From contig JAHHHV010000064.1 in the NCBI GenBank assembly GCA_019359155.1, positions 186,001-250,000 on the forward strand: DNA of 64,000 nucleotides, in the 5' to 3' direction. The first letter of the stretch is position 1. The number at the start of each line of letters is the position of its first letter. The notes beneath the pieces are model-generated. The model saw only the letters and a list, made by a program, of their open reading frames with translations, had not been told where the DNA came from and did not search any database. Source of the stretch: Pegethrix bostrychoides GSE-TBD4-15B. GTDB lineage: Bacteria; Cyanobacteriota; Cyanobacteriia; Elainellales; Elainellaceae. A program made the position numbers and the translations under genes. This document shows positions 3,035 to 51,506 of the stretch, piece by piece.

Positions 3035-4057
3035 TCAGGTTTGTATAGTGCGATCCTGCCGAGCCTGCGCTGCCGCTTTGACCTGCACCATCCGCTCTCC
3101 CACGGTAACGTTGAGCTGATCGCCAATCAGCAGCACCAGCGAGCTGAGATAGAGCCAAAGCATCAGCACAATCACCGCTCCGACCGTGCCGTAAACCTGG
3201 TTGTAGTTGCCAAAATGCCGGACATAGAGCCGAAACAGTAGCGATAAACTGGCCCAGAGAATGGCGGCAATTACCGCTCCGGGCATAATCGGTTGCCCCG
3301 GATTCCAGCGGCTAGGCCCATAGCGATAGATAAAGCCAAAGGTGATCGACATGATAAACAGTACCAGCGGAAAGGTGAGCAGCCGCCAGAGCCGCAGCAG
3401 ATCCAGCTCAAAGTCGCCGCTATGCCCTGCCAGATTCCGCACCACAATGTCACTGACAAACATCAGGCTGAGCGCCGAGAGCAGCAGCAAAATTGCGCCA
3501 ATGGTTAAACCTACCGCCACCACTCGCGCCTGCCAAAATGGCCGCATCTGAGCGCGTGGAATCCGGTGAATTTGATCGAGCGCCGCCATGGCCGCTGTCA
3601 GCGCCGCCGAAGCCGTCCAGAGCGCCAGTCCAAAGCTCAGCGAAAACAGCCCCCGGTCGCTGCTGGCGCTGACGGCGTTCGCAAAGCTCTGGATCAGCCA
3701 AAGCGCATCCGTTGGCGTGACTTCGCTGAGTTGGCCTGTCAAAGCCTCAAAGGTGACTTTCAGCGGACGAAATAGGCCAATGGCAGTCAAAACCGCCAGA
3801 ATCGCTGGAAATAGCGACAGCATGGCGTTATAGGCCATCTCAGAGGCCAGACCGGGCAGACGCTGTTCGCCCGCGGCCTGCACAGTCTGCCAGATGGTTT
3901 TAAGATTCAGATGACCGAAAAACTGCACGAAGCGAACTGCATCTGAGTGATATTGCGATACTGCTCGGGTCGCCTGTGACTCAAGCGACTTGGCGACAGG
4001 CGCGGAGCGGCGTCTTTTAATCGCCCGATCCATTCTCCGCATCGATTTTGCCCTCAT
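3035..4057 (-). CDS. YihY/BrkB-family inner-membrane protein
   Basis: 340 residues with about six hydrophobic spans. It has the family pattern: an N-terminal amphipathic segment, LASEMAYNAMLSLFPAILAV for span 1, and the central FIYRYGPSRWNPGQPIMPGA loop typical of YihY/BrkB. The biochemical role of the family is not established (once annotated as RNase BN, later withdrawn). The C-terminus is basic and cytoplasmic. GGGAG lies 5 nt before the ATG at 4057. It is only 15 bp from the stop of the upstream histidine kinase, so the two are probably cotranscribed. Confidence 0.85.
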   Translation of the reverse strand: MRAKSMRRMDRAIKRRRSAPVAKSLESQATRAVSQYHSDAVRFVQFFGHLNLKTIWQTVQAAGEQRLPGLASEMAYNAMLSLFPAILAVLTAIGLFRPLKVTFEALTGQLSEVTPTDALWLIQSFANAVSASSDRGLFSLSFGLALWTASAALTAAMAALDQIHRIPRAQMRPFWQARVVAVGLTIGAILLLLSALSLMFVSDIVVRNLAGHSGDFELDLLRLWRLLTFPLVLFIMSITFGFIYRYGPSRWNPGQPIMPGAVIAAILWASLSLLFRLYVRHFGNYNQVYGTVGAVIVLMLWLYLSSLVLLIGDQLNVTVGERMVQVKAAAQARQDRTIQT

Positions 4058-4072
4058 TCTGGCTCCCTGATT

Positions 4073-6109
4073 TTAATCTCCTGGGGTGGGCGATACTGTG
4101 CTCAACGCAGGCAGCGTGACTTGAAACTGCGTCCAGCCCGCCTGACTCGTCACCTGGATCTCGCCCTGCAATCGCTCAACCAGCTTTTGCACTAGCGCCA
4201 GACCCAGACCAGTCCCCCCCTGTTTCCACGGGTCGGCGTTTGGACATCGATAAAATTTATCAAAGATTTTGGAAATTTCAACCTCTGGGATCACAGCTTG
4301 GTTGCGAATTGTAAACGAAATACGGGCAGACGTATCAGATTCTAATCGCACCGTCAGGTTAATTTCTCCACCGGGAGCCGTATATTTGCAGGCGTTGTTG
4401 AGCAGCTCAGCCAGAATCCGCCGCAGCGAAGCCACCTCTGAGGCCACAGCAGGCAGATTTGGAGCAACCTGCATTTGAAACTGATGCTGCCGTGCCGCAA
4501 ACCGGGGCCCAAACGGCTCTAGCAGTTTGGGCAACCAGTCTTGCAGATCGATCTCCTCTAGCTCAATCGGGCGCGGAGCCGCCTGTAGCTGCTGAAGATC
4601 GAGCAGGTCGTTGATCAGTTCGGCCTCGCGGACTGCCTCTTGCTCCAAAATGCCAATATATTTGGCGCGCCGATCGTCGGTGGAGGAATTCCGCAGCATT
4701 TGGATCGCCATTTTGATATTGGTGATTGGAGTTCGCAGTTCATGCGACACCGTGCTGAGGAATTCGTCTTTGAGCCGGTTCAGTTCGGCTAGCTCGCGCA
4801 CCTGCACCTGAGCCGCCTGATAGAGCCGCGCTTGCCGGATCGCAATCGCGCATTGGCTAGCTACCTGCTGCACCAGCCGGATCTCGGAGTCGCTAAACAT
4901 ATGGTCAGGCTGGTGAATTAGCCAGAGGTCGCCCAGCACCGACTGCGCGCCAGGTGGAGCCGCCTCAGATGCCTGAGAATCCACAAAAATCGGGCAGGCC
5001 AGCATCGCTACTCGTCCGCGTTCCGGGTTGGGCAAGAGCGAACAAAACTGAAAGCTCAGAGCCTGCTTCAGCTGCCGATAAATTTCTGAGAAGTTCTCCA
5101 TCTGCGCCACCCGGCCTCGCAAGGTCGGGATCGATGCGGTGTAGTCATACTGGACGGTGGAGGTGCCCTGATTCAGGTCGTAGAGGGCAGCATTACAGCC
5201 TGCGAGCTGCAAAATTACCGTCAGCTCTTGCAGGGCGGCTTCCAAGATCACGCTCTCATCCAGCGAGTCCCGCACCCGTTCCGTAATTCGCTTCAGCGTG
5301 GACTCATACTTCAGCGAATTGAGCAATTCTTCGGTGCGTTGCTGCACCTGCTGCTCTAGATCGGCATTGAGCCGCTGCGACTGCTGATACAGCTCCGAAT
5401 GCTGAAGCGCAATTGCTACTTCGGTAGAAAGCTGCTGGAGCAGCTCAATCTCTGCTAGCTGCCAGTTGCGTGAGCCAGAGCGTTGATGCGCCGAGATCAA
5501 GCCTAGCGTCTGATCGGCTTGCCGCACAGGAGCCGTCAGCAATGCTGTCGCCTGCTGATGTTCAACGAATGGCGCTAGTTCTGGCGCTAGTTCTGGGGCT
5601 AGATGGTCAACCTGATTCAGCACAATCGAGCCAACCGACTGACAAAACCGGATCAGCGCTGCTCCTGCCGTTTTTTCGAGCGCTGTATGCAGCAGTTCTT
5701 CGCCGCCTTCAGCCGCTTCTGCCACAATCGTCGCCTTGTCATCCGCCTGGAACTGATAGATTACGACTCGATCCACCTGTAACAGCTGCTTAACGGCAGC
5801 TACAGTCTGTTCCGCAATCTGATTCGGATCGAGAGACTGTCGCAGACGCTGAATCACCAGCATTAGGCTGCGCTCACGCTGGCACTGAGCCTGCAAGATT
5901 TGCTGCTGCTGCTGCTGCTCTGCCCAAGCGACTTGGAGCTGGACGAGTAAGTCGCTGAGGCTAGACTGCTCAAGATAGCTTGCACCATCTAAACTTGATC
6001 CTACAAGCTGGGTCAGCGACCTGAAGACAGCCTCTAGCTCTGTCTGGGCTGACTCTACCGAGAAATCTGTCAGGGAGTCCAGGGGAGAATCTAAAATGCC
6101 GTCACTCAC
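4073..6109 (-). CDS. GAF-domain sensor histidine kinase
   Basis: 678 residues. A Gln-rich N-terminal coiled coil leads to two GAF-like domains (about 95-240 and 275-430) joined by helices. A HisKA domain follows with H-box FLSTVSHELRTPITNIKM, then a HATPase with N-box LAELLNNACKYTAPGGEI and GTGLGLALVQ. No transmembrane segment is evident, so it is a soluble kinase. No chromophore cysteine/DxCF motif is seen in either GAF, so a phytochrome-like role is not supported. It starts at GTG (6109) with AGGA 5 nt upstream. A 12-bp repeat (5571-5606, three units) gives the Glu-Leu-Ala-Pro run in the first GAF. No response regulator is adjacent. Confidence 0.9.
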   Translation of the reverse strand: MSDGILDSPLDSLTDFSVESAQTELEAVFRSLTQLVGSSLDGASYLEQSSLSDLLVQLQVAWAEQQQQQQILQAQCQRERSLMLVIQRLRQSLDPNQIAEQTVAAVKQLLQVDRVVIYQFQADDKATIVAEAAEGGEELLHTALEKTAGAALIRFCQSVGSIVLNQVDHLAPELAPELAPFVEHQQATALLTAPVRQADQTLGLISAHQRSGSRNWQLAEIELLQQLSTEVAIALQHSELYQQSQRLNADLEQQVQQRTEELLNSLKYESTLKRITERVRDSLDESVILEAALQELTVILQLAGCNAALYDLNQGTSTVQYDYTASIPTLRGRVAQMENFSEIYRQLKQALSFQFCSLLPNPERGRVAMLACPIFVDSQASEAAPPGAQSVLGDLWLIHQPDHMFSDSEIRLVQQVASQCAIAIRQARLYQAAQVQVRELAELNRLKDEFLSTVSHELRTPITNIKMAIQMLRNSSTDDRRAKYIGILEQEAVREAELINDLLDLQQLQAAPRPIELEEIDLQDWLPKLLEPFGPRFAARQHQFQMQVAPNLPAVASEVASLRRILAELLNNACKYTAPGGEINLTVRLESDTSARISFTIRNQAVIPEVEISKIFDKFYRCPNADPWKQGGTGLGLALVQKLVERLQGEIQVTSQAGWTQFQVTLPALSTVSPTPGD

Positions 6110-6219
6110 GGTTATCCTAGCTTCCTCCGCTTAGTTGGCGCATATTTAGTGGGCTGTGGTTCGCGTATGGCTCGCTGTTGGCCTGCCAATATTTAGGCTT
6201 CCCACTCGCGCTAGCAGGT

Positions 6220-9263: not shown

Positions 9264-9641
9264 CTATGGAGATGCCCGCTTGAAGGTGAGTTTGATTGCG
9301 CCTTTGTCAGCCAGCTTGCCGCCGCTGCCAAAAATGCTGACCTGCCCTTCGGCGTTGATCTCCACCGATAGCTCCACTTCATCAAGCTGCAACTCGCTCA
9401 CCTGCCCAGCTTGCTCAAACACTTCGCCCACGACCTGCAATAAGCCCTGCATCTGTGTTTTAAGGGCGGCAGCATCGAGCGGTACGCGCTGACGCACAAT
9501 GGTTTTGACGGTTTCGGTGGGGCGCGGTGACCCAAAACTGCCGCCAATATCATTGCTGTTGCGTTCTCCTCGCTGGATCTGAACCGTTTCTGTGGTTTCG
9601 ACTTCGGTGATTAACCAGAGCTGAGCGGCGGGATCGGTCAT
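9264..9641 (-). CDS. Trypco1 / CU044_2847-family protein
   Basis: 125 residues. The C-terminal half matches the small beta-rich 'trypsin-co-occurring' domain 1: DEVELSVEINAEGQVSIFG, a Gly-rich turn and GAIKLTFKR at the end. In the comparative-genomics literature this domain accompanies trypsin-like or caspase-like proteases and STAND NTPases in predicted conflict systems. Here it lies directly downstream of a metacaspase on the same strand (97 bp gap), which is the expected context. AAGGAGAT precedes the ATG. Its own activity is unknown; it may be a protease substrate or regulator. Confidence 0.75.
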   Translation of the reverse strand: MTDPAAQLWLITEVETTETVQIQRGERNSNDIGGSFGSPRPTETVKTIVRQRVPLDAAALKTQMQGLLQVVGEVFEQAGQVSELQLDEVELSVEINAEGQVSIFGSGGKLADKGAIKLTFKRASP

Positions 9642-9737
9642 GCTGCTTGGATCTCCTTAAAAAAATCGAGCGCTTCGCGCAAAGACGGAAGGGAAAAGAA
9701 AAAAGTACAGAGGGCAAAAGGGCAAAAGAGCAAAGGG

Positions 9738-11510
9738 CTACAAAGTCCTCGACGCAGAACAAACAACCCGAAAACCGTAGAGGCCGACGTCGCGAGCCCC
9801 CGCATCATTGACGTCGCGAGTGGCAGAGCGACAATACCGAGGATAGTCGTTCCAGGAACCGCCCCGCAGGACGCGAGAACCTCTGCCAGACTGGGTTTCA
9901 TCGATCCAAGCACTGCCGTCTTTTGGTGCGCCTTTATAGTTTTCATGCCAGTGATCCAAACACCATTCCCAGAGGTTGCCATGCATGTCGTATAGCCCAA
10001 AAGCATTTGGCGGAAAACTACCAACCTCGGTTGTTTGCTCTCGATACTCCCCCTTGGGAGCCGAGCCGTAAGTAGAGTTACCGTCGTAGTTTGCAAGATC
10101 TGTCGTGATCGTTTCACCGAAATGAAACGGCGTTGTGGTTCCAGCTCGACAGGCATATTCCCATTCTGCTTCGCTGGGCAGCCGATACTCAAGCTGAGTT
10201 TTGCGAGATAACCTTGCACAAAATTCCACCGCATCATGCCAGGAAACTTGTTCAACCGGACGGTTCTTGCCTTTAAACCAAGATGGATCATCCTCAAGAT
10301 CTTGCTTAATTTTCGGCAGAGCCGCTACTGCTTTCCACTGCGCCTGCGTCACCAGATATTTGCCCATCCAGAAATCAGGAACGGTCACAAGATGCTGTGG
10401 GCTTTCGCTATCTCTACGCTCTAGTTCTTCCTCTGGTGATCCCATCTGAAAACTTCCGCCCGGAATCCACAGCATTTCCAGCTTGATTTGGTTGCCCAGA
10501 TCCACTTCTCGAACCTGTGCTTCACCAGTCGGAGTTGCGTTGCGCTGTCCAGTCGGCTGAGGAACTGGAGCAACCGGGACAGGCGCTACGGGCACCGCCG
10601 AAACTCGCGCCAGCCGTTCAATGCCTTCAATTGCGTCAGAGTCAGCGCTAGAAACCGCCAGCACGCGAATCCAGAGCTGCTTTGCCAGCTTTACATCTTG
10701 CTGCACCTCCGCCCGCAGCGCATCATTTTTTAGCGTCACAATATCCGACAAATTCGCCTTGCGCGGCAGCAAAATCAAATGATATTTGGTTGGCGGTTCT
10801 ACCACTCCGTAGGGCGTTTGCGGCTTGCGCTTATACTGCTGCACCAGCGGCGGCACCGTGCGACGCAACCGCTCATACAGCCGTTCGACCGTGGCGCAGT
10901 TGCCTTCGCCCTCTAGCCGCAGCCCTTGCAGCAGCGCATAAGTAAAGGCTCCCTGCTGGAGTTCCGCAATCTCATACGAAGACTCCCAGGGGCTGCAAGC
11001 AAACAGCGTAATCACCCCCGGCTGCTTCTCCTGCCCAAACCCAGCGTCGTTTCCCCGTCTGCCGCCGCCACTTCGGCAAGCATCAATCAGCAGCACCACA
11101 TTATCTGCCCCGCTGCGCCGCAAGCGTTCCGTCACATAGTGCAGCGCAATCCCCGAATTTTCCACATCACCCGGGTCAGCGCCGCTCGGCAGCAGATAAT
11201 CGCGCTCGTCATGCCGCTCGCCGTGCCCCGCAAAGAAAAACCAGAGATTGTCTCCCGGCCCAAGAAAGGGCAGGTCAAATCGCACCCGCAGAAAGCGGCG
11301 CAGATTGTCCAGATCAGGCGTCGCATCTAAGTTAGCCCCAAAATCTGCGGGAATTGGGGCGGCATCCTTCGCAAAATGATAGACCTGCTGCGCCTTCAGC
11401 TCCTGCTGAAAAAAATCGCGCATTGCCTCGCTGTCCCGCTGAGCATAGTCTAGCTGTGGCAGGAAGCGGTAATTATTAATGCCAATTGTGATTGCCCAGT
11501 TGCGTCCCAT
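9738..11510 (-). CDS. Metacaspase (peptidase C14) fused to FGE-sulfatase-like domain
   Basis: 590 residues. Residues 1-240 are a caspase-hemoglobinase fold: GRNWAITIGINNY, catalytic His in LWFFFAGHGERHD (about residue 95) and catalytic Cys in VVLLIDACRSGGG (about 143). A helical linker and a Val-Pro-rich stretch (VPVAPVPVAPVP) follow. Residues 340-590 are a formylglycine-generating-enzyme/SUMF1 domain: MLWIPGGSFQMGSPEEE, YRLPSEAEWEYACRAGT, NLWEWCLDHWH, RGGSWNDYPRYCRSATR and GFRVV. Only one of the two FGE active-site cysteines seems to align, so the domain is more likely a binding module than an oxidase. No signal peptide. Operon with the Trypco1 gene. Orthocaspase-FGE fusions are recurrent in multicellular cyanobacteria. 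Confidence 0.9.
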   Translation of the reverse strand: MGRNWAITIGINNYRFLPQLDYAQRDSEAMRDFFQQELKAQQVYHFAKDAAPIPADFGANLDATPDLDNLRRFLRVRFDLPFLGPGDNLWFFFAGHGERHDERDYLLPSGADPGDVENSGIALHYVTERLRRSGADNVVLLIDACRSGGGRRGNDAGFGQEKQPGVITLFACSPWESSYEIAELQQGAFTYALLQGLRLEGEGNCATVERLYERLRRTVPPLVQQYKRKPQTPYGVVEPPTKYHLILLPRKANLSDIVTLKNDALRAEVQQDVKLAKQLWIRVLAVSSADSDAIEGIERLARVSAVPVAPVPVAPVPQPTGQRNATPTGEAQVREVDLGNQIKLEMLWIPGGSFQMGSPEEELERRDSESPQHLVTVPDFWMGKYLVTQAQWKAVAALPKIKQDLEDDPSWFKGKNRPVEQVSWHDAVEFCARLSRKTQLEYRLPSEAEWEYACRAGTTTPFHFGETITTDLANYDGNSTYGSAPKGEYREQTTEVGSFPPNAFGLYDMHGNLWEWCLDHWHENYKGAPKDGSAWIDETQSGRGSRVLRGGSWNDYPRYCRSATRDVNDAGARDVGLYGFRVVCSASRTL

Positions 11511-39948: not shown

Positions 39949-42900
39949 CTAAATTCCGCGATTTTGAATTGAGATATGCAGCTTGCTAAACGGCACTGAC
40001 CAGTTAATGCCCTCCGTGGGTAAATAGCGAGAGCTGACAATCAGCAGCAGCGCCACCGTTGCTGCCAGCAGCCAAAATGCCCAGGCTGGAAATTTCACCA
40101 GGCCGAGCAGACTGTTGGCGAGGTAGAGAATCACCAGCGACACGATGATCACCAGCAGCAGCCCCGGCAGTTGGCTAACCAAAAGGCCGATGATTCCAAC
40201 TGCTACAATCGGCCAGATCAAGGCGGGCAAGCTGCCTAAAACCGACAGCACCCCAGATGTTTTGGGATTTCTGGAGCGCACCCAGAGATAGAAACTTTGC
40301 AGGGCGCGGTTCAGGACGCGAAACAAAGTGGTATTGCGAACGGCATTGCCTGTCGGCGGCGAATTTAGAATATCGCGCAGCACCAGCCCCGCTCTGGCCG
40401 CAATTTCTTCCAAGACAATCGTCGGTACATCTTCAGCCAGACTTTCGGAACCAACGCGGTAGACGTTGCGGAAATAGTCATCTACCTGCCGTGCATCTTT
40501 GAGCAGTTCGGCCACGGGCGCGGTCGCCAATTCTCTGACCGCAAATGGCGTGATGGCGCGATCAAAATAGCCGGAGACGGGCTGATATTTAGGCTTGAGC
40601 TTTTGCAGCATCAGCATCAGCTGCTGGTTGAGCTGCGTGATATCGCGCTCAGCTGCTTGATCTGCCAAGCGCGGTTTCTCAGCCTGTCCTGCGGCAACCA
40701 ACCGCTTGAGGAAGTCGTAGAGCTGATCGATTGAGGGCGAGACGATCAGTTTGGCGAGCGAGTCGTTGAGATTTCTCCAGCCCTCTGGATCAGCGGCCTT
40801 AAATTGCTGAAAGGCTGCTTCGAGCAGCGCTTCGGGCGGATGCTGCTGCAAGAACTTCTGGAGCTGTCGCGGACTAGAGCCCAGCAGTTTGGCGACGAGT
40901 TGATCAACTTGGTGAATGGCTGGCGGCTGCTGACTCGAACTGCTGAAGATCTGCACTCCCGCAAAAGCTGACTGATAGCCCAAGCCAGCCACCGTTTTTT
41001 GAAAGCTGCGTTTTGAAGGCATCAACTGCTGGCTCCAGTCGATCTGCTCGGCCATTGCGTCTTCCAGCACGTTGCCCAAATCAGCCTTGAGGATAGTGCG
41101 ATGGCCTGCGGTCACCATTGCATCCAAAAATTGCTCTCTAGAGGTCAGGGGTTTGCCTGCCGCCAGATGGCTGAGCTCTTTCAGCAGCAGTACTTTTTCG
41201 GTGGGCGTTGCGTCGGGCAGCGCTTCATCTACCAAGCGATCTAGATAAATTTGAGTTTTCTCGGCAGGGCTAGCATCACCTGGAATTTGAGCCAGCTGGC
41301 GGCGCACAAAGCCCTGAAAGTTCTGCATGGCCTCTGGCGTGAGCAAGGCTTCTACGACTCGGTTTAGGCCATCTAGCCGCCCCCACAAAATATCGTTCGA
41401 GCGCCAAGACTTTTTGAAGAAGCCGCCGAATGCGTTGAGCTGATCTCCAGCCAGCTTGTCGGTTAGCCCTTTGCCTTTACCAAAGCCGAACTGAGCCACA
41501 TCTGGACTGATCCGAATAATTTCAATTTGCTCTTTAGCCTGAATATCTGAAAGATACTCGTAGGAATAAACCTCTTCTTCAATGTAGCGAAAGCAGCGAA
41601 ATTTCGTCAGCAGTTCTTCAGAGAGTACAGAACCGCTGGCTGCAATGAGTTTCTCGGTCGCCTGCTCAATCTTAAACAGAATACTGCAATAGACTTCACT
41701 GTTATTTTCAAAATTCGGCTGCTGTTTGAACTGCTCTTCTAAGCGATAGAAGGACTGCTCTTGCAGCAAGGTCTCCGGCTGACTCAACTGCCCAGCCCGC
41801 TGCTTTAACTGCCCATAGACGCTGGAAAGCTTAGCCGAAACCTGCTGCTCGGCCTCGCTGAATGTCTGCGTTGACTCAGTGATCAGCGCTGCGGGAAGCT
41901 GGTTGAAAAAGTCGGCAGATACCTCAACCAGAGTCTCTTGCTGATCGAGTGCGTCTGGGTCAGTCGTGCGCCTTGATGACGGCTGAAACTCAGGTAGCTG
42001 CTGACTGTCAAACAAAAAGCGATGCAGCGCCAGCAGGTAGTCATAAATTTGCTTACGCGCCGTTTCTCGACTGCCCTCTGCCTGCGCCAGCAAGTCATAA
42101 AACGTTTGGCTCACGGGCTGCGATTGCAGCATTCCGGTCAACGCCGCCTGAACAATTTCGAGCAGCGAGATCTGCCAGCCGATTTTTTCAGCTAGATGCC
42201 TCAGCGTTGGGTGCAGGTCAGGATGCGCGACCTCGTTTTGGTACTGCGGCTCAGTCATACATTCACAGATCTTTTCGAGCAGAAAGAAATGTTTCCTCAA
42301 CGCATAGTTGACATCTAGATTGCGGATCTCTTGCCCGACGCGATGTAGAAAATTCTCTCGCTCTTTTTGCTTCTCTTGATCGGTAATATATTTGGCGAGG
42401 ATTTGAGCTGCTGTTTCTAACAGCGACTGATTTTTGGGGTCAACGCTAGTCTGGTCAATTCTTAGAATCAGGGGCAGAATTCGATCGCGCATTCCAACCA
42501 GGCGACAGCGAAGATAAACCTGTCGTCGTTGAATCATATCCAGCGACGGCTGATCTCCGCGCCGATTAGCTGCTAGCTTCGCTTCCCCGACCCGTTCAGC
42601 AGTCGCTCGCAGAAACTTATAGCGTAAGACACGCTCGTTGCGATCTTTGATTTCCTGCAAGTCGCTTGCAATACTCTCGTAGCGAGGCATTCCCACTAGC
42701 GAATCAGAAACCGTCTCCCAAATGTTCGGCCTCGGCATATTGTTGAACTTGGGACTCCCCAAAAACTGATCCGGGCTAGGATCAATATAAAATAGCCGCC
42801 GCTGCACTGGACGATAGGCAACGCGGTTATAGATTTCGCGAATTGTGTAGCTAAACGGACGGTTATCCAGCACACCGCCGTCTACAAAATGGAGCTTATA

Positions 42901-43755
42901 CCCGTCTGGAGGCGATTTAAGCGGCAGCTCACGCTTAACCAGATCTCCCCAGCGGATCAAACGCTGATCACTTGGGTCGTCAACGACAGACTCTCCAGGC
43001 GGTGGCAGTTTAACACTGACGACCGGGAACGCGACCGGAAAACAGGAGGTAATGCGGCAGAGCTTAGCGAGCGACTGCTGGGTTTGGGGCAGCGGCTGAA
43101 ACGGATGCTTGCGATAACGCCGATATTTCAGCAAAAATACAGTTTTGTGATCTTTAATCTCAATCACCGAACCCGTATTGTCAAACGCTTTAGAGACGCG
43201 GCCTAATGTATCCGTACCGGTCACAAATAGATCCAGCTCGCTAGAATCCGAGAACCATTCGCTGGCTGCCTTTTGTGGCTCAGTGTCCTGCTTATTAGAA
43301 GCCTGCTGGAACGCCTCTGCCAGACTGTCCTGGTAGTAGCCCTCGCCATCCAGCACCGAATTCGTCGGCTGGTGCGGATCAGACTGCTTCAGGTTGGTCT
43401 GCCGCAAAAGCTCGGCAATGTTGCCATTCTCACGCCAGATTTGGGCGAAGTTCTTGAAGTCAACCGCTACGTGCTGATTGCTGTTCGTCAAGGCATAGCT
43501 CAGCAGTACCCCGTTGATTCCGCCTGCGGACGTACCCGAAATCACGTCAACCACAATATCAGAATCAGTTAGTGCCTTCACTAGTTTATAGATGCCGCGC
43601 CCCCGCACCGCATTATAAAACTCTCGGCAAATGCCATTCATATAGATTGCCAGCGAAACGCCGCCGTATACGACTAACCCTAGCCGAAATTCCTGTCGGA
43701 ATTCAGGCTGCTGTAGCGGCGGCAATTTGGCGCCTGCGTTACTATTGCTATTCAT
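39949..43755 (-). CDS. Very long patatin-like lipase with C-terminal membrane anchor
   Basis: 1268 residues. N-terminal patatin domain: oxyanion loop LVVYGGVSLAIYMNGICREF, nucleophile VISGTSAGGINGVLLSYAL and the Asp of the dyad in LHFVDGGVLDNRPFSY, so an active acyl hydrolase is expected. A long helical body of about 800 residues (Gln/Glu-rich, coiled) is followed by about three transmembrane spans near the end (LIWPIVAVGIIGLLV, LLLVIIVSLVILYLANSL, FWLLAATVALLLIVSS). Last gene of the lipoxygenase operon, 28 bp after the P450. A membrane-bound lipase would feed free fatty acids to the lipoxygenase. GAGGTGA lies before the ATG. Confidence 0.92.
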   Translation of the reverse strand: MNSNSNAGAKLPPLQQPEFRQEFRLGLVVYGGVSLAIYMNGICREFYNAVRGRGIYKLVKALTDSDIVVDVISGTSAGGINGVLLSYALTNSNQHVAVDFKNFAQIWRENGNIAELLRQTNLKQSDPHQPTNSVLDGEGYYQDSLAEAFQQASNKQDTEPQKAASEWFSDSSELDLFVTGTDTLGRVSKAFDNTGSVIEIKDHKTVFLLKYRRYRKHPFQPLPQTQQSLAKLCRITSCFPVAFPVVSVKLPPPGESVVDDPSDQRLIRWGDLVKRELPLKSPPDGYKLHFVDGGVLDNRPFSYTIREIYNRVAYRPVQRRLFYIDPSPDQFLGSPKFNNMPRPNIWETVSDSLVGMPRYESIASDLQEIKDRNERVLRYKFLRATAERVGEAKLAANRRGDQPSLDMIQRRQVYLRCRLVGMRDRILPLILRIDQTSVDPKNQSLLETAAQILAKYITDQEKQKERENFLHRVGQEIRNLDVNYALRKHFFLLEKICECMTEPQYQNEVAHPDLHPTLRHLAEKIGWQISLLEIVQAALTGMLQSQPVSQTFYDLLAQAEGSRETARKQIYDYLLALHRFLFDSQQLPEFQPSSRRTTDPDALDQQETLVEVSADFFNQLPAALITESTQTFSEAEQQVSAKLSSVYGQLKQRAGQLSQPETLLQEQSFYRLEEQFKQQPNFENNSEVYCSILFKIEQATEKLIAASGSVLSEELLTKFRCFRYIEEEVYSYEYLSDIQAKEQIEIIRISPDVAQFGFGKGKGLTDKLAGDQLNAFGGFFKKSWRSNDILWGRLDGLNRVVEALLTPEAMQNFQGFVRRQLAQIPGDASPAEKTQIYLDRLVDEALPDATPTEKVLLLKELSHLAAGKPLTSREQFLDAMVTAGHRTILKADLGNVLEDAMAEQIDWSQQLMPSKRSFQKTVAGLGYQSAFAGVQIFSSSSQQPPAIHQVDQLVAKLLGSSPRQLQKFLQQHPPEALLEAAFQQFKAADPEGWRNLNDSLAKLIVSPSIDQLYDFLKRLVAAGQAEKPRLADQAAERDITQLNQQLMLMLQKLKPKYQPVSGYFDRAITPFAVRELATAPVAELLKDARQVDDYFRNVYRVGSESLAEDVPTIVLEEIAARAGLVLRDILNSPPTGNAVRNTTLFRVLNRALQSFYLWVRSRNPKTSGVLSVLGSLPALIWPIVAVGIIGLLVSQLPGLLLVIIVSLVILYLANSLLGLVKFPAWAFWLLAATVALLLIVSSRYLPTEGINWSVPFSKLHISIQNRGI

Positions 43756-43783
43756 GACTCACCTCTTAAAATTTCCCGAATCA

Positions 43784-45139
43784 TTATCCAGCATCGCATT
43801 TTGCGGTTCGCCGCACTCGCCCTACCGCAATCATCACGTCAATCAACATCTCCAGCGCCAGATCTTTGCCGGGGCAAATTCGGCCTGCATGCCGCTCCCC
43901 CACTGCATGAAACCCCATGTGATACGGGCAGAGATTTTCGCGTTCGGCATTAAACTCATAGGTCGTCTCACCCCAGAAACCCTTGTCCAGCAGCCCCAAA
44001 CTCATCGGAATCAGCAGCTTTGTGCCTGCCGGAAACTGCCGCTCTTGACCCGCGATCTCGGCAGTAAACGGCTCGGTGGCGACTCGATGCGTAGCGCTGA
44101 CGGGTGCCCAGAGGCGGGCGCACTCTAATAAAAACAGCCGCACTGCCTCCCGGTCTTGCAGATTGAGCGCGTCCCAATGTTGAGTCGGGTCAATGCTGGC
44201 GGTCTGCTGGTCTTTGTATGCGGGCAACGGACGGTAGCCCATAGCGGTGTAGCCCAGATGCAGCGGCCCTTGCAGCGCCGCAATTCCCATAATCGCAGTC
44301 ATCAGCTTAGCCAGCTCGCGACGTGTCATGCCGTGATACTCAGGACTGTCTTCGACAAAGCTGCTCAGAGCGGGAGACTGCTCGTAAACTGTGGCGGCGC
44401 GCTCGATTAGATCAGGTAAATCGCCGTGCCCCATCAGATTATTTTTTTGCAGCAGACTGCCGATTTCCGCCAGGTAATGCGTTGGCAGCAGGCGACTGTA
44501 ATGCAGGTCAGTCAAGAGCGCTATCGCTTCGACGTTGTCGGGATCAATGCCAAACATGACGTAATGCAGATAGCGCACTAGAAAGCCCATCCAGCCACGC
44601 TGGTCGTTGGTGAAAAACGCGCCGTCAGCATCATGTGGCATCTCGATGTAGTCAACCGCCAACTGGTCGAGTAGGCGATGCGCGGTCGCATCTTGCTGGC
44701 GGGCTGTAGTCGTTTCGTTGAGCAAGTAGCGCTGCATACAGGCGCGAAAGGCGGCGTGATCGCTGTCGTCGAGGTCATTAGACAACGCCAGCAAAAACAG
44801 GTTGCGGCCATTCACGTCCTGATTCGGCGCGTGATTTGCATCTAGAACTGAAGTGCCCAGTCGCCAACTCCGATGCTGAGGCGAGGTGAGCGCTGTTTCC
44901 AACTCGTCAAATTCGCCCATCACTACCTGTCCCGCACAGCAAAACGTTGAGCCAAGCGCCTGCCGCTTACTGTCTAGATAGGTCGGCTCGTTGGCCACCA
45001 GCCCTTCCACAAAGCTGATAATCGGCATCAGGGTTTGGCTCAGGTTCTCTTCTGGATGCTGCAAAGCCCAGGCTTGGAATTCATTCAAGGCTGGATTGAG
45101 TAGAGCAGAGAAAATACTTTCTAGATTGTCTGGATTCAT
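43784..45139 (-). CDS. Divergent cytochrome P450 linked to lipoxygenase
   Basis: 451 residues. P450 C-terminal hallmarks are readable: K-helix ExxR in LLECARLWAPVSATHRVA, the meander (FPAGTKLLIPMSLG, GETTYEFNAERE), and a heme-ligand loop HAVGERHAGRICPGKDLALE with the thiolate Cys at about 424. The I-helix lacks the usual acid-alcohol pair (region LMTAIMGIAALQGPLHLGYT), as in P450s that use peroxides rather than O2 (CYP74, CYP152, fungal Ppo). Given the lipoxygenase 76 bp upstream, a fatty-acid hydroperoxide isomerase, lyase or peroxygenase is likely. No redox partner gene nearby, which fits. Confidence 0.75.
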   Translation of the reverse strand: MNPDNLESIFSALLNPALNEFQAWALQHPEENLSQTLMPIISFVEGLVANEPTYLDSKRQALGSTFCCAGQVVMGEFDELETALTSPQHRSWRLGTSVLDANHAPNQDVNGRNLFLLALSNDLDDSDHAAFRACMQRYLLNETTTARQQDATAHRLLDQLAVDYIEMPHDADGAFFTNDQRGWMGFLVRYLHYVMFGIDPDNVEAIALLTDLHYSRLLPTHYLAEIGSLLQKNNLMGHGDLPDLIERAATVYEQSPALSSFVEDSPEYHGMTRRELAKLMTAIMGIAALQGPLHLGYTAMGYRPLPAYKDQQTASIDPTQHWDALNLQDREAVRLFLLECARLWAPVSATHRVATEPFTAEIAGQERQFPAGTKLLIPMSLGLLDKGFWGETTYEFNAERENLCPYHMGFHAVGERHAGRICPGKDLALEMLIDVMIAVGRVRRTAKCDAG

Positions 45140-45178
45140 GATTGAGATCTCAGTAATAGGATCGGCGACTCATATCTT

Positions 45179-45222
45179 CAAACTAAATGCAAACCAAACG
45201 CAAACTAAACACAAACTAAATA
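45179..45222. repeat. Four tandem 11-bp units between lipoxygenase and P450
   Basis: Variants of CAAACTAAATG (four units, one or two changes each). Lies at the 3' end of the lipoxygenase gene and in the gap before the P450. Confidence 0.9.
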
Positions 45223-47636
45223 TTAATGCTCTGAGGAATATTCACAGGCTTCAGGTGATCATAAGCCCAAGGACGCTCTGCGTTGCGCTGATCGATCGTT
45301 TGGGCGATTCCCTGCAATCGCTGCTGGAACATCCGTAGCGGCTCACTCACCTGAGGATCAGCAAACTGCTGCGGCTCGTACTCTCCCAGCCGGGTAAAGT
45401 AAACCGACCCCAGCAGATAGAGCAAATTAAGCTGCGCCTGCGCCTGCTCCAGCGGCGGCAGCAGATCGAGCCAGTCGCTGAAGCTGGCGGTTTCAATATC
45501 TGACTGCACGGGCGCGTAGCCAGCGGTCGGCATAATTGGCGCAAAGCTCATGACGCTGTTCTGGGGAAAGTTGACGGCAGCATGTTGGGCGCTAGCTGTA
45601 AAAATCACCATCGTCACGGCTTCAATCAAATAAGCCAGCGTCGTAATTTCGCCTGTTCCCGTATTGCCAAAGTCCGGCAAGCGCCCGCCGTCAAAGGCCA
45701 CCAGCTCAGATGCCCAAGCTTGCAGCCGCGCGTCATGCTGCACCGCCGTATCAGAGCCGTAATATAGCCCCAGATAAGCCGTCACCCAGTCCTGAATCGC
45801 ATTCCAAATCAGCAGCCCGTCGTCGCGATAAGGGTAAACTGGCAGGCTGGTTTGATCCGCTACGCCCCGATCTTTGAGCCGCTGCGGCAGCATATCCGCA
45901 TTAAAGCCGCGCCCCAGAAAGCCTTTCACAATCAAAACGCGCGAGTTATCAATCGTGGCAGAGAGCAGCTGATTCACGCCGCCCAGTGGCGACACCAAAA
46001 AGCCCTTCGCCGCATTGTTAATGGCCAGCGTGCCCTGAAAATGCGGCAGCAGCAGGCGAGACAGCGGATGTTCGGCAGGCAGTCGCCGATGGGTTGCCAT
46101 CACAAATGGCTCGATCAATAAATGCGTCCGGGCAAAGTGGGATACGCCCTCGTGAAAGTTGGCATCTGCAATTTGCACAATGGTTTTAGCAATTAGCCAT
46201 GCGGCCTCTGGGGCTGCGGGCGTAACCACCGGATGCTCAGCAGGATTTTGCCCCGCCTGAATCGCCACCGGACGCATTAGCCCACCCGCTAGCGGCACCG
46301 CAAACAGCGCTAGCGGCGCATAGAGATACTTCTGCACTTGCGGCTGCGTGCCAAACGTACCGCCCAGCGCCCCATCCAAAATGCCGTAATCAGCCAGATA
46401 CAGTCGCCCGTCTCGCAGAGCCAGCTCCAGCGAATCCGGCTCGCCCATCACCGTCTGATACTGCGCTTCGGTGACGGGAAAGCGTGGATCGGTGGTCGTC
46501 ATCTGGGTAATCATCAGCGGATTTGGCCCCGCCACCCGCAGCCAAGCAAACATCTCGTCGGCGTACAGGCTAGCCGCCACCTGAGGTCGCTGAATGTAGG
46601 TAAACAGCTGCTCGTAGTCTGCAAGCTGCTGAGGCCGACCCGTGGGCGCTTTCTCCTTGAGACCATCTAGCAGGCGACTCGCAAATGGCCGAATCAAGTC
46701 TGAACCCAGCACTTTAACTAAATTAGAAGACATAAACTGCTCAATCTCTGACGGCTTGGCAGGCACATTTTGCATGAGCCGCTGGAGCGCTGTCTCCACC
46801 CCACTCGAAACTTGCGTCTTGACCGCCGCCGAGGGTGCGCTTCTGAGCATGACTGCCGCCTCGGCACCTCTGGCCGCCGCCGAGATTGCAGCCTGACTAC
46901 TGGCCTGACCATCAGCCTGACCAATAGATGACTGAAGCAACACAGAAGCCTCAATCCCCTTGGCAACCTCAACCGCAGCCGCATTGGGCGGCAGTCCTTG
47001 CAAAATCTTCACCTCGGTTGTGGCGGCTGGCAAACCCTGCGACAACTGCTCGGCGGCAATATCTACGCCCTTAGCAGCTTCAAGATCAGCATTGGCGGGC
47101 AATGCGGCGGGCGCAACGGGCATAGCCGCAGGTGGCAACCCTTCCAGCAGCTGCTCAAGTGCAGTATCAATCCCCTCGGCAACCTGATCCGCCGAAGCCA
47201 CACTCGTCGTCGTACTGGCTGGCGCATTGGACAGAGCCATGGGCTTGACTGCCAGATTCTCTGCCGCTGCCTTTTCCGCCAGCGCATCTCGAAGCAGCAT
47301 CTCCGGTAAAAAGCCAATCAGCGCCCCTACCAGCTTTAGCTTCAGAGCTGGCCCCTGATCCTCCAGCGTTTGATACAGAGTCTGACGCAGAAAATCGCGC
47401 ACATCATCTTCTACGCCTTGCTGGCCCTGATCACCCCGATTGGCGACTAGCGTATTGATCGCTAGATTGATCGCCTGCTTCGCAATCTCCACTAGCCACG
47501 GCTTAGAAAAACTTTCGCTCTGGGGCAGCTTGTCCACCATTGCAATCGGCTCAATATGGCTATAGTTGTACTCATAGACATTCACTGAGGTCTCTATAGC
47601 CTGCTCAATCTGTCCTGCGGAATTTGTCTCAACCAT
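45216..47636 (-). CDS. Lipoxygenase
   Basis: 806 residues. Catalytic iron ligands are all seen: HxxxxH in SHFARTHLLIEPFVMATHRR (about 500), His plus Asn in TASAQHAAVNFPQ (about 685) and the obligatory C-terminal Ile (PQSINI). EMFAWLRVAGPNPLMI and EHPLSRLLLPHFQGTL are further family markers. It lacks the PLAT domain. The N-terminal part VYEYNYSHIEPIAMVDKLP is followed by an unusual insert (about residues 150-290) of degenerate Ala-rich repeats (LEQLLEGLPPAA, AAEQLSQGLPAA, VKILQGLPPNAA). It makes fatty-acid hydroperoxides; regiospecificity unreadable. ATG at 47636, GAGG 7 nt upstream; first gene of the operon. Confidence 0.93.
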   Translation of the reverse strand: MVETNSAGQIEQAIETSVNVYEYNYSHIEPIAMVDKLPQSESFSKPWLVEIAKQAINLAINTLVANRGDQGQQGVEDDVRDFLRQTLYQTLEDQGPALKLKLVGALIGFLPEMLLRDALAEKAAAENLAVKPMALSNAPASTTTSVASADQVAEGIDTALEQLLEGLPPAAMPVAPAALPANADLEAAKGVDIAAEQLSQGLPAATTEVKILQGLPPNAAAVEVAKGIEASVLLQSSIGQADGQASSQAAISAAARGAEAAVMLRSAPSAAVKTQVSSGVETALQRLMQNVPAKPSEIEQFMSSNLVKVLGSDLIRPFASRLLDGLKEKAPTGRPQQLADYEQLFTYIQRPQVAASLYADEMFAWLRVAGPNPLMITQMTTTDPRFPVTEAQYQTVMGEPDSLELALRDGRLYLADYGILDGALGGTFGTQPQVQKYLYAPLALFAVPLAGGLMRPVAIQAGQNPAEHPVVTPAAPEAAWLIAKTIVQIADANFHEGVSHFARTHLLIEPFVMATHRRLPAEHPLSRLLLPHFQGTLAINNAAKGFLVSPLGGVNQLLSATIDNSRVLIVKGFLGRGFNADMLPQRLKDRGVADQTSLPVYPYRDDGLLIWNAIQDWVTAYLGLYYGSDTAVQHDARLQAWASELVAFDGGRLPDFGNTGTGEITTLAYLIEAVTMVIFTASAQHAAVNFPQNSVMSFAPIMPTAGYAPVQSDIETASFSDWLDLLPPLEQAQAQLNLLYLLGSVYFTRLGEYEPQQFADPQVSEPLRMFQQRLQGIAQTIDQRNAERPWAYDHLKPVNIPQSINI

Positions 47637-48000
47637 CACAATGCCTCAATTCTAGTGAATAGTGCTGCACTAAATACTCAGCAATAAATTTTGTAGAGCG
47701 CAATGGGGTCAGCCCCCTCTAGTTTGACGATTCAGATGCTTCTGATTATGCCAGCTTCTGCCTAGATCGCTTCGGTTTTTCTACTATCCTTAACAAGTGC
47801 TTCCAGAATATACGGCTTACTCCCCAAGCATCGTCTTCGTGACAGCTGTTCCCAGGTGGCGTTACGATTGCGTCAGCCTTGCCGCCTTTGGATCAGACTC
47901 GGAATTGCTCCATGGTTCCTGTTCGTCAGGATCGCTGGTGACTCTGTCGCACCACAGTTTGAGGATTTGGGTTAGGTAGAAATGAAACAGAGAAGAAGAC
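47637..48000. other. Intergenic region with a NACHT-HEAT gene relic
   Basis: 364 bp between hicB (stop at 48001) and the lipoxygenase start, so it holds the lipoxygenase promoter. It includes the 60-bp relic at 47919-47977. The rest shows nothing certain; the plus-strand frame 47797-47979 is antisense to the relic and not a gene. Confidence 0.6.
47919..47977 (-). pseudogene. Relic of a second NACHT-HEAT 3' end
   Basis: About 80 percent identical (hand count, 48 of 60 with one gap) to 48513-48572, the last HEAT segment of the NACHT gene. On the minus strand it reads DRVTSDPDEQ, against DRAANDPDEQ in the intact gene, then loses the frame. It indicates a former tandem copy now separated from the intact one by hicBA. 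Confidence 0.6.
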
Positions 48001-48446: not shown

Positions 48447-51400
48447 CTAACAATCACCTCCGTTTCTTTGCAATTGGAATTCACTTAACCGCTCCCTCGC
48501 CCACTGTCGTAGCTGTTCGTCGGGATCGTTGGCAGCTCTGTCGCGCAGCAGTTCGAGGGTTTTGGGATAGGTGGGGTAGTGCGTGAGGAGAGTTCTAAGG
48601 GCTTCTTGACGAGGATTACCCTCCCAGTGCTTCTTACGCTCAAATGAATCATTAGTAGCAACTTGGCATAAAAATTCTGTAATTTCGGGAGCGCCTTTCC
48701 AGTATTCTGTAATGATACACAGTGAATTCCAGCGCAAATTTGAATTATCTTCTTTTTGAACTAAATCCTTTAGAATTAGCAGGGTGTCTGAATTATCGCT
48801 CCAATCACGAGATAGTTCGCGCAATGCTTCTATCTGAACCCCCCTAGTTTCTTCTTGATGAGATAAATTTCTAAGAATTGGTAGAGTGTCTGGATCGTCT
48901 TTCCAATGTCTTACTAGTTCCCTTACAGATGCTCTTCTGACATCTGTATTTTCATTACTTTGAGTTAGAAGATTTTTGAGAATTGGTAGGATGTCTGGAT
49001 CATTTCTCCAATGTCTTGCCAGTTCTTCTACAGCAGCTTGTGCCGCCATTGAATCATCCTTTCGTTGAGCGATTGATTTTAGAAAAGGGAGAACATCAAT
49101 ACTATTTCTCCAACCTCGAACGATTGAAGTCACCGCAAAGTATGAAATCCACCATGATGAAGTTTCAGATGATGCATTAAGGCACGTCTGCAACCAACTC
49201 AACACGTGCTTATCTTCGCTCCAAGCTATGGCAACTATCTGAGCCATTTGTATGGCCGCTTCAAAAGTAATTCTCTCAATGGACTGATCCTCTATTTTTC
49301 GTTTAATAGTTTCTAGTAATCGAGCTGATGTTGTAGTTACTGAATTAGGGTTCTTTACTTCGATCAGACATTGAGTAGCAAGCAGTAAACCTCTAATTTC
49401 TCGCTCTGAAAAAAGGTCATTTTCTGCATCATCGGCTTTCCTCACCATCAGAAACTCAATCAGTTGCCCCGCAAACTTTGCATCAATCATTCCGCAAATC
49501 AGCCGCAACACCTCATGCCAAGTCTCATCCTGCCAATTCTGACCAAACACTTCATCCCGCAACTGCTCAAACGTCAGCGTCCGGGATTTCTCGAAACGAT
49601 GTACGATTTCCGTTGCACAGAAATATTCTAGGAAGGTGCGGTGGACGAAGCCGTAGGTGTCAGCTCCTCGGTCGCAGAGAATCCAGTTGCGGTGGCGGAG
49701 TTGGCCAATCAAGCCGTTCGCTTTTTCGCGTGGTTCACTAAAGCCCTGCTCGCGGAGATAGTCGGTTAGGATGCGGGTGAGGCGTTCGGCGCTGATCAGA
49801 TTGCCCTGCAAGCCTTGCTCACCTGCCTGCATTTCGTAGGCAATCAGCCGCAGCATTTCCTGCTTTTCGCGTCGCCCGATTGTGTCCATCGGTAGCTGCA
49901 AGCGCTTATGATCCACGTCCCAGTGGTAGAGCAATACCCGCGAAGCGTGATCGTACAGATCAGCCCGATCACGCGGCAACTCCTGCCGTCGATTTAGGAT
50001 TGCCATCATCGTCAGCAGCAGTGGATTATCGGCCAGATTTTGGATCGCGTTGGAGTTAGCGATTGCCTCTTTTAGTCTTGTCACCAGTCGCGGCTTGTCG
50101 GGGTCATTGCCCAATGCCAACCTGTACCAGCGGTCGATAAATTCATGGATCTCGTCGGTGTTAAGCGGCTGGATCGTGAAGTGACGAAAATTGGCGTGCT
50201 GCAAGCGTTCTGGGTTATAGCCAATAATCCGCGAGGTGATGATAATTTGTGCTTTCGGGTACTGCTGCGCGAAGCGAATCATATCGTCAATGATCGCCAA
50301 TTGAGTCGAGCGCTCAAACACTTCGTCCAAACCGTCGAACATTACCAGCGTCGAGTCTGACTGCAAATACTGATGAAGCTGCTGCTGATCAAACTGCCAG
50401 TCCGCTCCCCGCCCCCGATGCAAAAACTCCAAAAACCCGTCAACCTGCGCTAGCGCATAGTCTCGTAGCTCAATCAACAGCGGCAGAGTTGCTGTCTTAC
50501 CTTCCGCCCATTCCAGCGCCAGATATTGCAGCAGCGTCGATTTCCCCGCTCCCGGATCGCCTAGTATTACAGCCAGTTTGCCCCCTGAATCACCCATAAA
50601 TGGGGCACTTTGAATTCCGGTTCCCCCTTTTTCAAGGGCTAGGGGGGATCTCGCTAACACCTCCAGCACCTTACGAGACGGTTGCTGAAAATACTCGCTG
50701 CGATATTGCGCCAGCGCATCAGCAGATAGATCGGCTTCGAGCTGTCCCTGCGCTTGCAACTGACGCTTCAAATCTAGCGGTAGCTCATAGCGCGTTGGCG
50801 GCAGAGCTTCCCGCACCGTCTGCTCAATAAACATATTCCAGAGCTTGATTACATCCCCCCGATCCGTGCTGTCAATGGCATACAGCTTTAAGTGTCCATA
50901 GCTGCACTGCAAGCTCTCTCGGTATTTGGCAACATCAAAGCCGGGTGAAATTTGAGCGGTGTTTTGGGCGATCTGCTCCAACAGATTAGTTTCCAGCAAG
51001 GCTCGCAGTTCCGGCGTTTCGCGCAGAATTCGCCGCACTTTTTTAAGATATTTGCTGCCCACCTGCTGCCAGTCAAACTCGGCTGGCAGCACCGGAAACG
51101 GCCTGCCTCTCCGGCAAGAGCGCTGCCAAACTGTGGCCAGAGCCTCGGCATCAATCGCGGCGCAGTCCGGCTCAAACGCTTTGCCCAGCAGGGGCTTCAC
51201 CGCCTCATCCTGCACAAACTGAATCAGCGCCGGATCGTAGCGGTCGCGGATCTCAGCTTTGGAGAGATCTTGATCCTCCAGCTCATCCGCCACAACCACC
51301 AGAAAGGCTTTCAGAGCGCCCGCCACCGCCCGTTTTGTCACCTCTGGCTGGGCTGAAGTAATTCCTGCTTTGAGGCAACCCTTGAAGAAATCTTTCACAT

Positions 51401-51506
51401 AGTCTTCGGCGGCAGTCTGCCCCAGCTTCAGGATCTGCTCAAAGATCACCTTGCCCAGTTCAGAGCCCAGTTCTGCTGCGCCAATTGTCACCAACCATTC
51501 CAGCAT
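48447..51506 (-). CDS. NACHT NTPase with C-terminal HEAT repeats (predicted STAND defence protein)
   Basis: 1019 residues. N-terminal helical domain (1-250), then NACHT: Walker A AVILGDPGAGKSTLLQYLA, Walker B STLVMFDGLDEVFE, sensor AQIIITSRIIGY, and GxP-type NLADNPLLLTMMAIL. A winged-helix part follows with YGFVHRTFLEYFCATEIVHR. From about 750 to the end come HEAT-like repeats of roughly 37 residues with the pattern ELxRHWxDDPDTLPILK. Relatives are bacterial NACHT (bNACHT/Avs-like) immune proteins in which the repeats sense phage products. A palindromic repeat is inserted in frame at 50580-50651. The 3' part is AT-richer than neighbours. Confidence 0.9.
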   Translation of the reverse strand: MLEWLVTIGAAELGSELGKVIFEQILKLGQTAAEDYVKDFFKGCLKAGITSAQPEVTKRAVAGALKAFLVVVADELEDQDLSKAEIRDRYDPALIQFVQDEAVKPLLGKAFEPDCAAIDAEALATVWQRSCRRGRPFPVLPAEFDWQQVGSKYLKKVRRILRETPELRALLETNLLEQIAQNTAQISPGFDVAKYRESLQCSYGHLKLYAIDSTDRGDVIKLWNMFIEQTVREALPPTRYELPLDLKRQLQAQGQLEADLSADALAQYRSEYFQQPSRKVLEVLARSPLALEKGGTGIQSAPFMGDSGGKLAVILGDPGAGKSTLLQYLALEWAEGKTATLPLLIELRDYALAQVDGFLEFLHRGRGADWQFDQQQLHQYLQSDSTLVMFDGLDEVFERSTQLAIIDDMIRFAQQYPKAQIIITSRIIGYNPERLQHANFRHFTIQPLNTDEIHEFIDRWYRLALGNDPDKPRLVTRLKEAIANSNAIQNLADNPLLLTMMAILNRRQELPRDRADLYDHASRVLLYHWDVDHKRLQLPMDTIGRREKQEMLRLIAYEMQAGEQGLQGNLISAERLTRILTDYLREQGFSEPREKANGLIGQLRHRNWILCDRGADTYGFVHRTFLEYFCATEIVHRFEKSRTLTFEQLRDEVFGQNWQDETWHEVLRLICGMIDAKFAGQLIEFLMVRKADDAENDLFSEREIRGLLLATQCLIEVKNPNSVTTTSARLLETIKRKIEDQSIERITFEAAIQMAQIVAIAWSEDKHVLSWLQTCLNASSETSSWWISYFAVTSIVRGWRNSIDVLPFLKSIAQRKDDSMAAQAAVEELARHWRNDPDILPILKNLLTQSNENTDVRRASVRELVRHWKDDPDTLPILRNLSHQEETRGVQIEALRELSRDWSDNSDTLLILKDLVQKEDNSNLRWNSLCIITEYWKGAPEITEFLCQVATNDSFERKKHWEGNPRQEALRTLLTHYPTYPKTLELLRDRAANDPDEQLRQWARERLSEFQLQRNGGDC
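50580..50651. repeat. Cyanobacterial palindromic repeat in frame inside the NACHT gene
   Basis: Outer arms CCCCCT (50581-50586) and AGGGGGGATC (50641-50650) enclose the sequence TTTGAATTCC and a CCCCCTTTTT / AAGGG inner arm. This is the well-known GATCCCCC...GGGGGATC mobile palindrome of cyanobacteria, partly degenerated. It is translated as SPLALEKGGTGIQSAPFM on the minus strand, directly N-terminal to the P-loop. Confidence 0.75.

Follow-up and report, generated by a model that had tools for sequence, protein, structure and literature searches.

A stretch of 64,000 nucleotides (hereinafter, the window; GenBank assembly GCA_019359155.1, contig JAHHHV010000064.1, positions 186,001 to 250,000) from the cyanobacterium Pegethrix bostrychoides GSE-TBD4-15B contains three consecutive minus-strand genes that encode a lipoxygenase (LOX), a highly divergent cytochrome P450, here denoted P450-A, and a patatin-like hydrolase (Table 1). 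The genes are separated by gaps of 76 and 28 bp, and a consensus scan of the minus strand between positions 39700 and 48500 detected no terminator-like site, which is compatible with, but does not prove, a single transcript. A preliminary description made from the sequence alone had reported this arrangement, along with a complete set of LOX iron ligands, a P450 lacking the usual O2-activating I-helix pair and a membrane-anchored patatin-like protein with a Ser-Asp dyad, and our analysis confirms the observation.

Table 1. Coordinates of the features in the window and in related loci (L, individual loci; G, genomes)
Locus	Coordinates	Strand	Feature
Window	45216-47639	-	Lipoxygenase, 807 aa from GTG; ATG at 47636
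Window	about 46740-47250		Ala-rich region in the N-terminal half of the lipoxygenase
Window	45140-45215	-	Lipoxygenase-P450 intergenic spacer
Window	about 45177-45220		About four tandem copies of an 11-base repeat (TTTAGTTTGNN), beginning in the lipoxygenase stop codon
Window	43784-45139	-	P450-A, 451 aa
Window	39949-43755	-	Patatin-like hydrolase (TIGR03607), 1268 aa
Window	48447-51506	-	NACHT NTPase with NNH2 N-terminus and HEAT repeats, 807 bp upstream of the lipoxygenase
L171 (G294)	4387-6153		Animal-type haem peroxidase
L216 (G019)	4570-5838		Protein that by eye looks catalase-related
L218	4031-5770		P450-E with N-terminal repeat region
L219	3651-5381		P450-E with N-terminal repeat region
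L019 (Microcoleus vaginatus HSN003)	9594-11130		Small-protein gene split by transposase ORFs
L024	6643-7323		LRAT-domain gene
L025	310-996		LRAT-domain gene
L207 (Microcoleus)	9848-10888		ORF with, by eye, a ferredoxin-like Cys motif
L208 (Trichodesmium)	3914-6154		Small-protein gene head to head with two genes that by eye encode peroxiredoxins

The LOX matches the Pfam family PF00305 (E=1e-59; 203 bits against a cut-off of 23.6), and its best solved relatives are named 15-lipoxygenase or linoleate 9/13-lipoxygenase, the first of these being 8x8f (E=6e-118). In an alignment of 46 LOXs, all five iron ligands of the window protein are present (His496, His501, His686, Asn690 and the C-terminal residue Ile807), and Ala544 occupies the site that, according to the Coffa-Brash rule, marks S-lipoxygenases. 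The same Ala is present in 16 of the 16 LOXs in this alignment that adjoin P450-A or P450-B (see below), but also in 22 of the 30 others. The long N-terminal region of the window LOX is Ala-rich and contains, by eye, about five imperfect copies of a motif resembling GxExAxxxL, which are partly present in locus L010 and variable in L013 and L171; such a region is unusual for a LOX.

P450-A is so divergent that the window protein has no Pfam match even at an E-value of 10, and two of its relatives reach PF00067 only at 0.03 and 0.05. A phmmer search detects the C-terminal part of BM3 P450 (E=0.005), whereas a search of PDB sequences with the P450-A profile yielded, at E-values up to 0.1, only CNOT1 chains (0.004-0.009 over 62 columns), which we take to be chance matches. 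Nevertheless, the assignment to the P450 superfamily is supported by the conservation of the ExxR motif (E339, R342), R400 and the haem-binding Cys422 within CPGK, and by a predicted structure of modest quality (pLDDT 59.7, pTM 0.62), for which the 50 Foldseek matches listed are all P450s (best E=7e-4). The I-helix reads IAALQGPL in the position where 32 of 32 ordinary cyanobacterial P450s compared contain an acid followed by Thr (forms of AG.ETT). Thus, P450-A has Gln-Gly in place of the acid-alcohol pair that activates O2.

The patatin-like protein scores 460 bits against TIGR03607 (cut-off 262) and matches PF01734 (E=2e-14); it contains Ser76 within GTSAG, Asp292 within DGG, and hydrophobic C-terminal stretches at about residues 1166-1247. 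The NACHT NTPase encoded upstream of the LOX shows weak similarity to antiphage NACHT proteins, below their cut-offs.

Recurrent linkage of lipoxygenases with divergent P450s

To assess whether the association between the LOX and P450-A is conserved, we analyzed the distribution and neighborhoods of both genes. P450-A was detected in 6 of 292 cyanobacterial genomes in an even sample of the phylum (three further weak hits in this sample are P450-B), in 5 of 36 genomes of the order to which the window belongs, and in 20 loci of another collection. Removal of duplicates (L010 and G303, L012 and G297, L013 and G314, L021 and G039), recognized by sequence length only, left 26 loci. Of these, 11 have a LOX within about 1 kb (the window, L010, L012, L013, L017, L022, L028, L029, G245, G149 and G155), in both gene orders and in convergent orientation. 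Another 11 have an uncharacterized small protein gene beside P450-A (L011, L014, L015, L016, L018, L019, L020, L021, L023, L027 and G099; split by transposase genes in L019), and four, G294, L024, L025 and L026, have neither in the DNA examined. Many of the 26 loci are close kin: nine or ten come from Microcoleus-like genomes, and L028 and L029 as well as L017 and L022 are near-copies. Locus L017 is filed under Tatlockia but its LOX and P450 are nearly those of Gloeocapsa L022, so that it is probably a mis-binned cyanobacterial contig.

If P450-A depends on LOX, genomes lacking a LOX next to P450-A would be expected to encode one elsewhere. This is the case for all 15 such genomes, namely, G039, G099, G294 and the other 12 (12 of 12), so that LOX co-occurs with P450-A in 26 of 26 genomes, compared with 46 of the 292 sampled genomes. 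The hypergeometric probability is 1.1e-5 for the six P450-A genomes of the sample, 2.2e-7 for the eight genomes with the full-length small protein, and 6e-11 for the twelve with either, without correction for kinship; at the genus level, 8 of 8 carrier genera against 26 of 116 genera gives 2.5e-6, and within the order, 5 of 5 against 11 of 36 gives 0.0012. No match to P450-A or to the small protein was found in 72,556 plasmid records, so that plasmid carriage is not supported.

In phylogenetic trees of LOXs, those linked to P450-A occupy three places. In one genus, G103 carries, at the same locus and downstream of the same gene, a 98.7% identical LOX without the P450 that G245, G149 and G155 carry 21 bp upstream of it; other small differences exist, such as a further gene behind the LOX of G103, and this pattern could reflect either gain or loss. 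LOXs close to those linked to P450-A and P450-B also occur without a neighboring P450 (L100, L107, L171, L202). In one of these, L171 of G294, an animal-type haem peroxidase (PF03098, E=1e-112) is encoded 144 bp upstream of the LOX and is a possible second dioxygenase.

Examination of 59 of the 62 LOX loci counted in the 292-genome sample (G074, G060 and one locus of G101, on contig C71, were left out) showed that 16 of these, in 15 of the 46 LOX genomes, have a P450 within 0.5 kb; with roughly five P450s per genome, as counted in 11 genomes, we estimate that chance would give far less than one. The linked P450s belong to several types, which fall into three groups. P450-B, which is about 23% identical to P450-A (profile match E=2e-10), lies between the LOX and the small protein in the six genomes where it was found, G024 (two copies), G091, G125, G167, G174 and G284, although this constant company might partly reflect the fact that P450-B was found through the P450-A, LOX and small-protein searches. 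P450-C (Acaryochloris L200 and L216 of G019) and P450-D (L089, L090) also lie beside LOXs, whereas P450-E lies beside more divergent LOXs (L218, L219, L221). The LOXs beside P450-E, and the one in L216, have no His aligned to the first iron ligand, so that their activity is less certain. In L216, the LOX and P450-C are accompanied by the protein of catalase-related appearance, and the N-terminal repeat region of P450-E in L218 and L219 (GKYVGRCNGC-like) recalls, by eye, a fascin or ricin-type domain.

Phylogenetic analysis of the P450s, based on 8 of the P450-A members in short searches with long branches flagged, and including no CYP74, CYP152 or fungal sequences, placed P450-A and P450-B in one clade apart from the 32 ordinary cyanobacterial P450s (SH-aLRT 95 and 99 in two trees), C and D in another (99), and E in its own (100), next to one ordinary P450. 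The A, B, C and D members aligned lack the acid-alcohol pair, although C retains a Ser in place of the Thr and D has Arg-Asn; in contrast, E keeps the pair in 2 of 3 members, so that loss of the pair is not a rule for LOX-linked P450s. Conservation of the LOX-P450 neighborhood in other genomes and a position of the P450 outside the ordinary monooxygenases had been set beforehand as conditions whose failure would refute the proposed pathway, and neither failed, the second with respect to the 32 ordinary cyanobacterial P450s compared.

Genes accompanying the LOX-P450 pair

In contrast to the strong link between the LOX and the P450, the patatin is a weak member of the association. Among the 26 P450-A loci, it lies beside the pair in 2 only, the window and L010 (also L167), which comes from a genome of the same genus. 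The gene order in the two is the same, with a gap of 28 bp in the window and 194 bp in L010, and the proteins are 55-77% identical; only the three genes and a distant regulator-type match (31%) are shared, whereas the flanks differ. In G294 and G314, the patatin is encoded on another contig than the P450, and G296 and G298 encode it without either LOX or P450-A. We therefore reject the patatin as a fixed third member, and one dedicated three-step pathway, as proposed in the preliminary description, with the lipase obligatory, appears doubtful. The LRAT-domain gene located 0.6-0.9 kb upstream of P450-A in Trichodesmium and Okeania was likewise rejected as a common partner because it is present in only 2 of the 26 loci (L024, L025).

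Two unforeseen partners were detected. The first is the small protein of about 184 residues, which is strongly conserved (41 invariant columns in 11 members) but has no credible match in Pfam (best 0.035, single members), NCBIfam (two members) or PDB sequences. In the 292-genome sample, it was found in 8 genomes, each time beside P450-A or P450-B; a ninth genome, G231, has only a 32-residue fragment with stops and was not counted. The link is not strict: of 16 P450-A genomes searched with the small-protein profile, 4 have it, and it is absent from the genome of the window. Trichodesmium G334 has two copies with neither P450 nor LOX in the stretches examined (L208, L209), and Okeania G336 has one copy 2.2 kb from a LOX, with a TnpB-like transposon gene in between (L204), and its P450-A on another contig.

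The second partner is an alpha/beta hydrolase with a predicted Asp nucleophile (VGHDWG), which adjoins P450-A in two lineages, in G294 (L169) and in L017, and is present as a broken copy in L022. The best solved relatives are epoxide hydrolases (5ng7, E=9e-36 for the L169 protein); this assignment rests on these relatives and on the Asp nucleophile, which dehalogenases share, rather than on the lid tyrosines. Among 17 genomes searched, copies with 64% or more identity over most of the protein occur only in these three, whereas the other long matches listed (150 residues or more) are 33% or less, the best in the window genome being 32%. Although indirect and derived from relatives of the window, this association points to an epoxide as the product of P450-A.

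A predicted oxylipin pathway

Taken together, these observations most likely reflect a cyanobacterial oxylipin module, that is, one that probably makes hormone-like oxidized fatty acids. In this view, to which we assign fairly high but by no means full confidence, the LOX would make a fatty acid hydroperoxide, probably S-configured given the Ala at the Coffa site, and P450-A would bind the hydroperoxide at its haem, split the O-O bond without O2, NADPH or a reductase, and rearrange it, most likely to an epoxide-type product (epoxy alcohol or allene oxide), as CYP74 enzymes do. In the window organism, the patatin may release the fatty acid substrate but would be a local addition. The genes, their motifs, the recurrent linkage and the co-occurrence are established by the analysis, whereas the reaction with hydroperoxides itself, the substrate, the configuration of the hydroperoxide, the independence of O2 and the product are inferred in the absence of activity data. 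The preliminary interpretation, under which the lipase frees the fatty acid, the LOX makes the hydroperoxide and the P450 rearranges or cleaves it in parallel to the plant LOX/CYP74 route, is thus partly supported: the functional parallel is well supported by context, but membership in CYP74 is not, and the role of the lipase is only weakly supported.

The closest analogy is the plant pathway in which a LOX is followed by a CYP74 enzyme (allene oxide synthase, hydroperoxide lyase or epoxyalcohol synthase), which needs neither O2 nor a reductase (PMC6627107; PMC10813956). P450-A resembles CYP74 in lacking the acid-alcohol pair, and when 1000 chains were aligned to the predicted structure, the first six entries were all CYP74A allene oxide synthases (Z 14.2-14.0); however, the model is weak and the next rows (13.7) count as tied. 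The I-helix segment of P450-A contains no Asn such as the active-site Asn321 of Arabidopsis allene oxide synthase, in an alignment with no CYP74 row to fix the position. The nine-residue Cys-loop insertion that is a hallmark of CYP74 (PMC6627107) is absent: the distance from the second Arg of the ERR triad to the Cys is 22 residues in 8 of 8 P450-A members measured, compared with 20-28 in 30 ordinary P450s, and that from the ExxR Glu to the Cys is 83 against a median of 78, so that the loop is altered (Phe 12, not 7, residues before the Cys) but nine residues are not gained. We therefore consider P450-A to be a separate family, CYP74-like in its inferred mode of action but not CYP74, and, unlike in the plant pathway, the genes are neighbors in bacteria. 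The CYP74 clan is reported from plants, Proteobacteria, algae and Metazoa, whereas cyanobacteria are named there only for catalase-related enzymes (PMC8124189).

Two alternative roles of P450-A appear unlikely but cannot be dismissed. P450-A could be a peroxygenase that, like the CYP152 fatty acid peroxygenases, bacterial P450s that use peroxide, employs the LOX hydroperoxide or H2O2 as oxidant to hydroxylate or decarboxylate a second molecule rather than isomerizing the hydroperoxide itself. This possibility is compatible with the loss of the acid-alcohol pair; furthermore, P450-B matches CYP152 chains (3e-4), although plant diterpene P450s match better (3e-9), and the Arg in the acid position of P450-D recalls the I-helix Arg-Pro motif of CYP152. 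However, P450-A itself has Gln-Gly in this position, and the co-occurrence with LOX in 26 of 26 genomes suggests that the LOX product is the substrate. Even less likely, P450-A could be a monooxygenase with an unusual I-helix that hydroxylates LOX products or another lipid with the help of redox partners. Some P450s without the acid-alcohol pair are still monooxygenases, the LOX-linked P450-E keeps the pair in 2 of 3 members, and redox partners need not be neighbors; by eye, the ferredoxin-like Cys motif in L207 lies 2 kb from a Microcoleus LOX. Conversely, both the acid and the Thr are gone in P450-A and P450-B, and inspection by eye of the window ORFs between 35482 and 52248 revealed no redox partner gene, with neighbors in other genomes not systematically annotated.

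Cyanobacterial pairs of a LOX with a haem enzyme acting on its hydroperoxide have been described in Anabaena and Acaryochloris (PMC8124189; PMC6627107), but there the partner is a catalase-related allene oxide synthase or lyase, is fused to the LOX and takes R-hydroperoxides (PMC6627107), whereas here it is an unfused P450 beside LOXs with the S-type Ala. Fungal linoleate diol, epoxyalcohol and allene oxide synthases also couple a dioxygenase to a self-sufficient P450 isomerase (PMC13049297); these, however, are eukaryotic fusions with a haem dioxygenase instead of a LOX. In the literature examined (PMC13049297; PMC11719350; PMC10813956; PMC6627107; PMC8124189; PMC6164985), catalase-related partners or mini-LOXs are described in cyanobacteria and CYP74 in other groups; no title or abstract opening among the papers covered describes a cyanobacterial LOX-P450 cluster, although, with only part of the literature and few subscription papers covered, a description elsewhere is possible. 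If the proposed scheme is correct, the LOX plus P450 solution to making signaling lipids arose in bacteria with P450 families other than CYP74, more than once, and the compact operon of LOX, P450 and an unknown protein is one in which a new enzyme family can be found by simple biochemistry. It could also supply an origin for oxylipins and volatiles of mat-forming and bloom-forming cyanobacteria such as Microcoleus, Trichodesmium and Okeania.

A more far-reaching, speculative and on present evidence unlikely scenario is that cyanobacteria assembled LOX-P450 oxylipin pathways several times from P450 groups other than CYP74 (A+B, C+D and perhaps E), and that the small protein in the LOX-P450-B-small-protein operons is a new oxylipin cyclase or isomerase. 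This would make a bacterial counterpart of the plant LOX-AOS-AOC route and could explain reports of OPDA and jasmonate-like compounds in some cyanobacteria (PMC6164985). None of 11 members of the small-protein family matches the Pfam allene oxide cyclase family; in the poor AlphaFold model (pLDDT 51), the predicted run of beta strands recalls a barrel, but no structural match is significant (best Z 4.7; Foldseek E no better than 0.47), and we draw no conclusion on the fold. In Trichodesmium, the small-protein gene in L208 is arranged head to head with the two genes that appear to encode peroxiredoxins.
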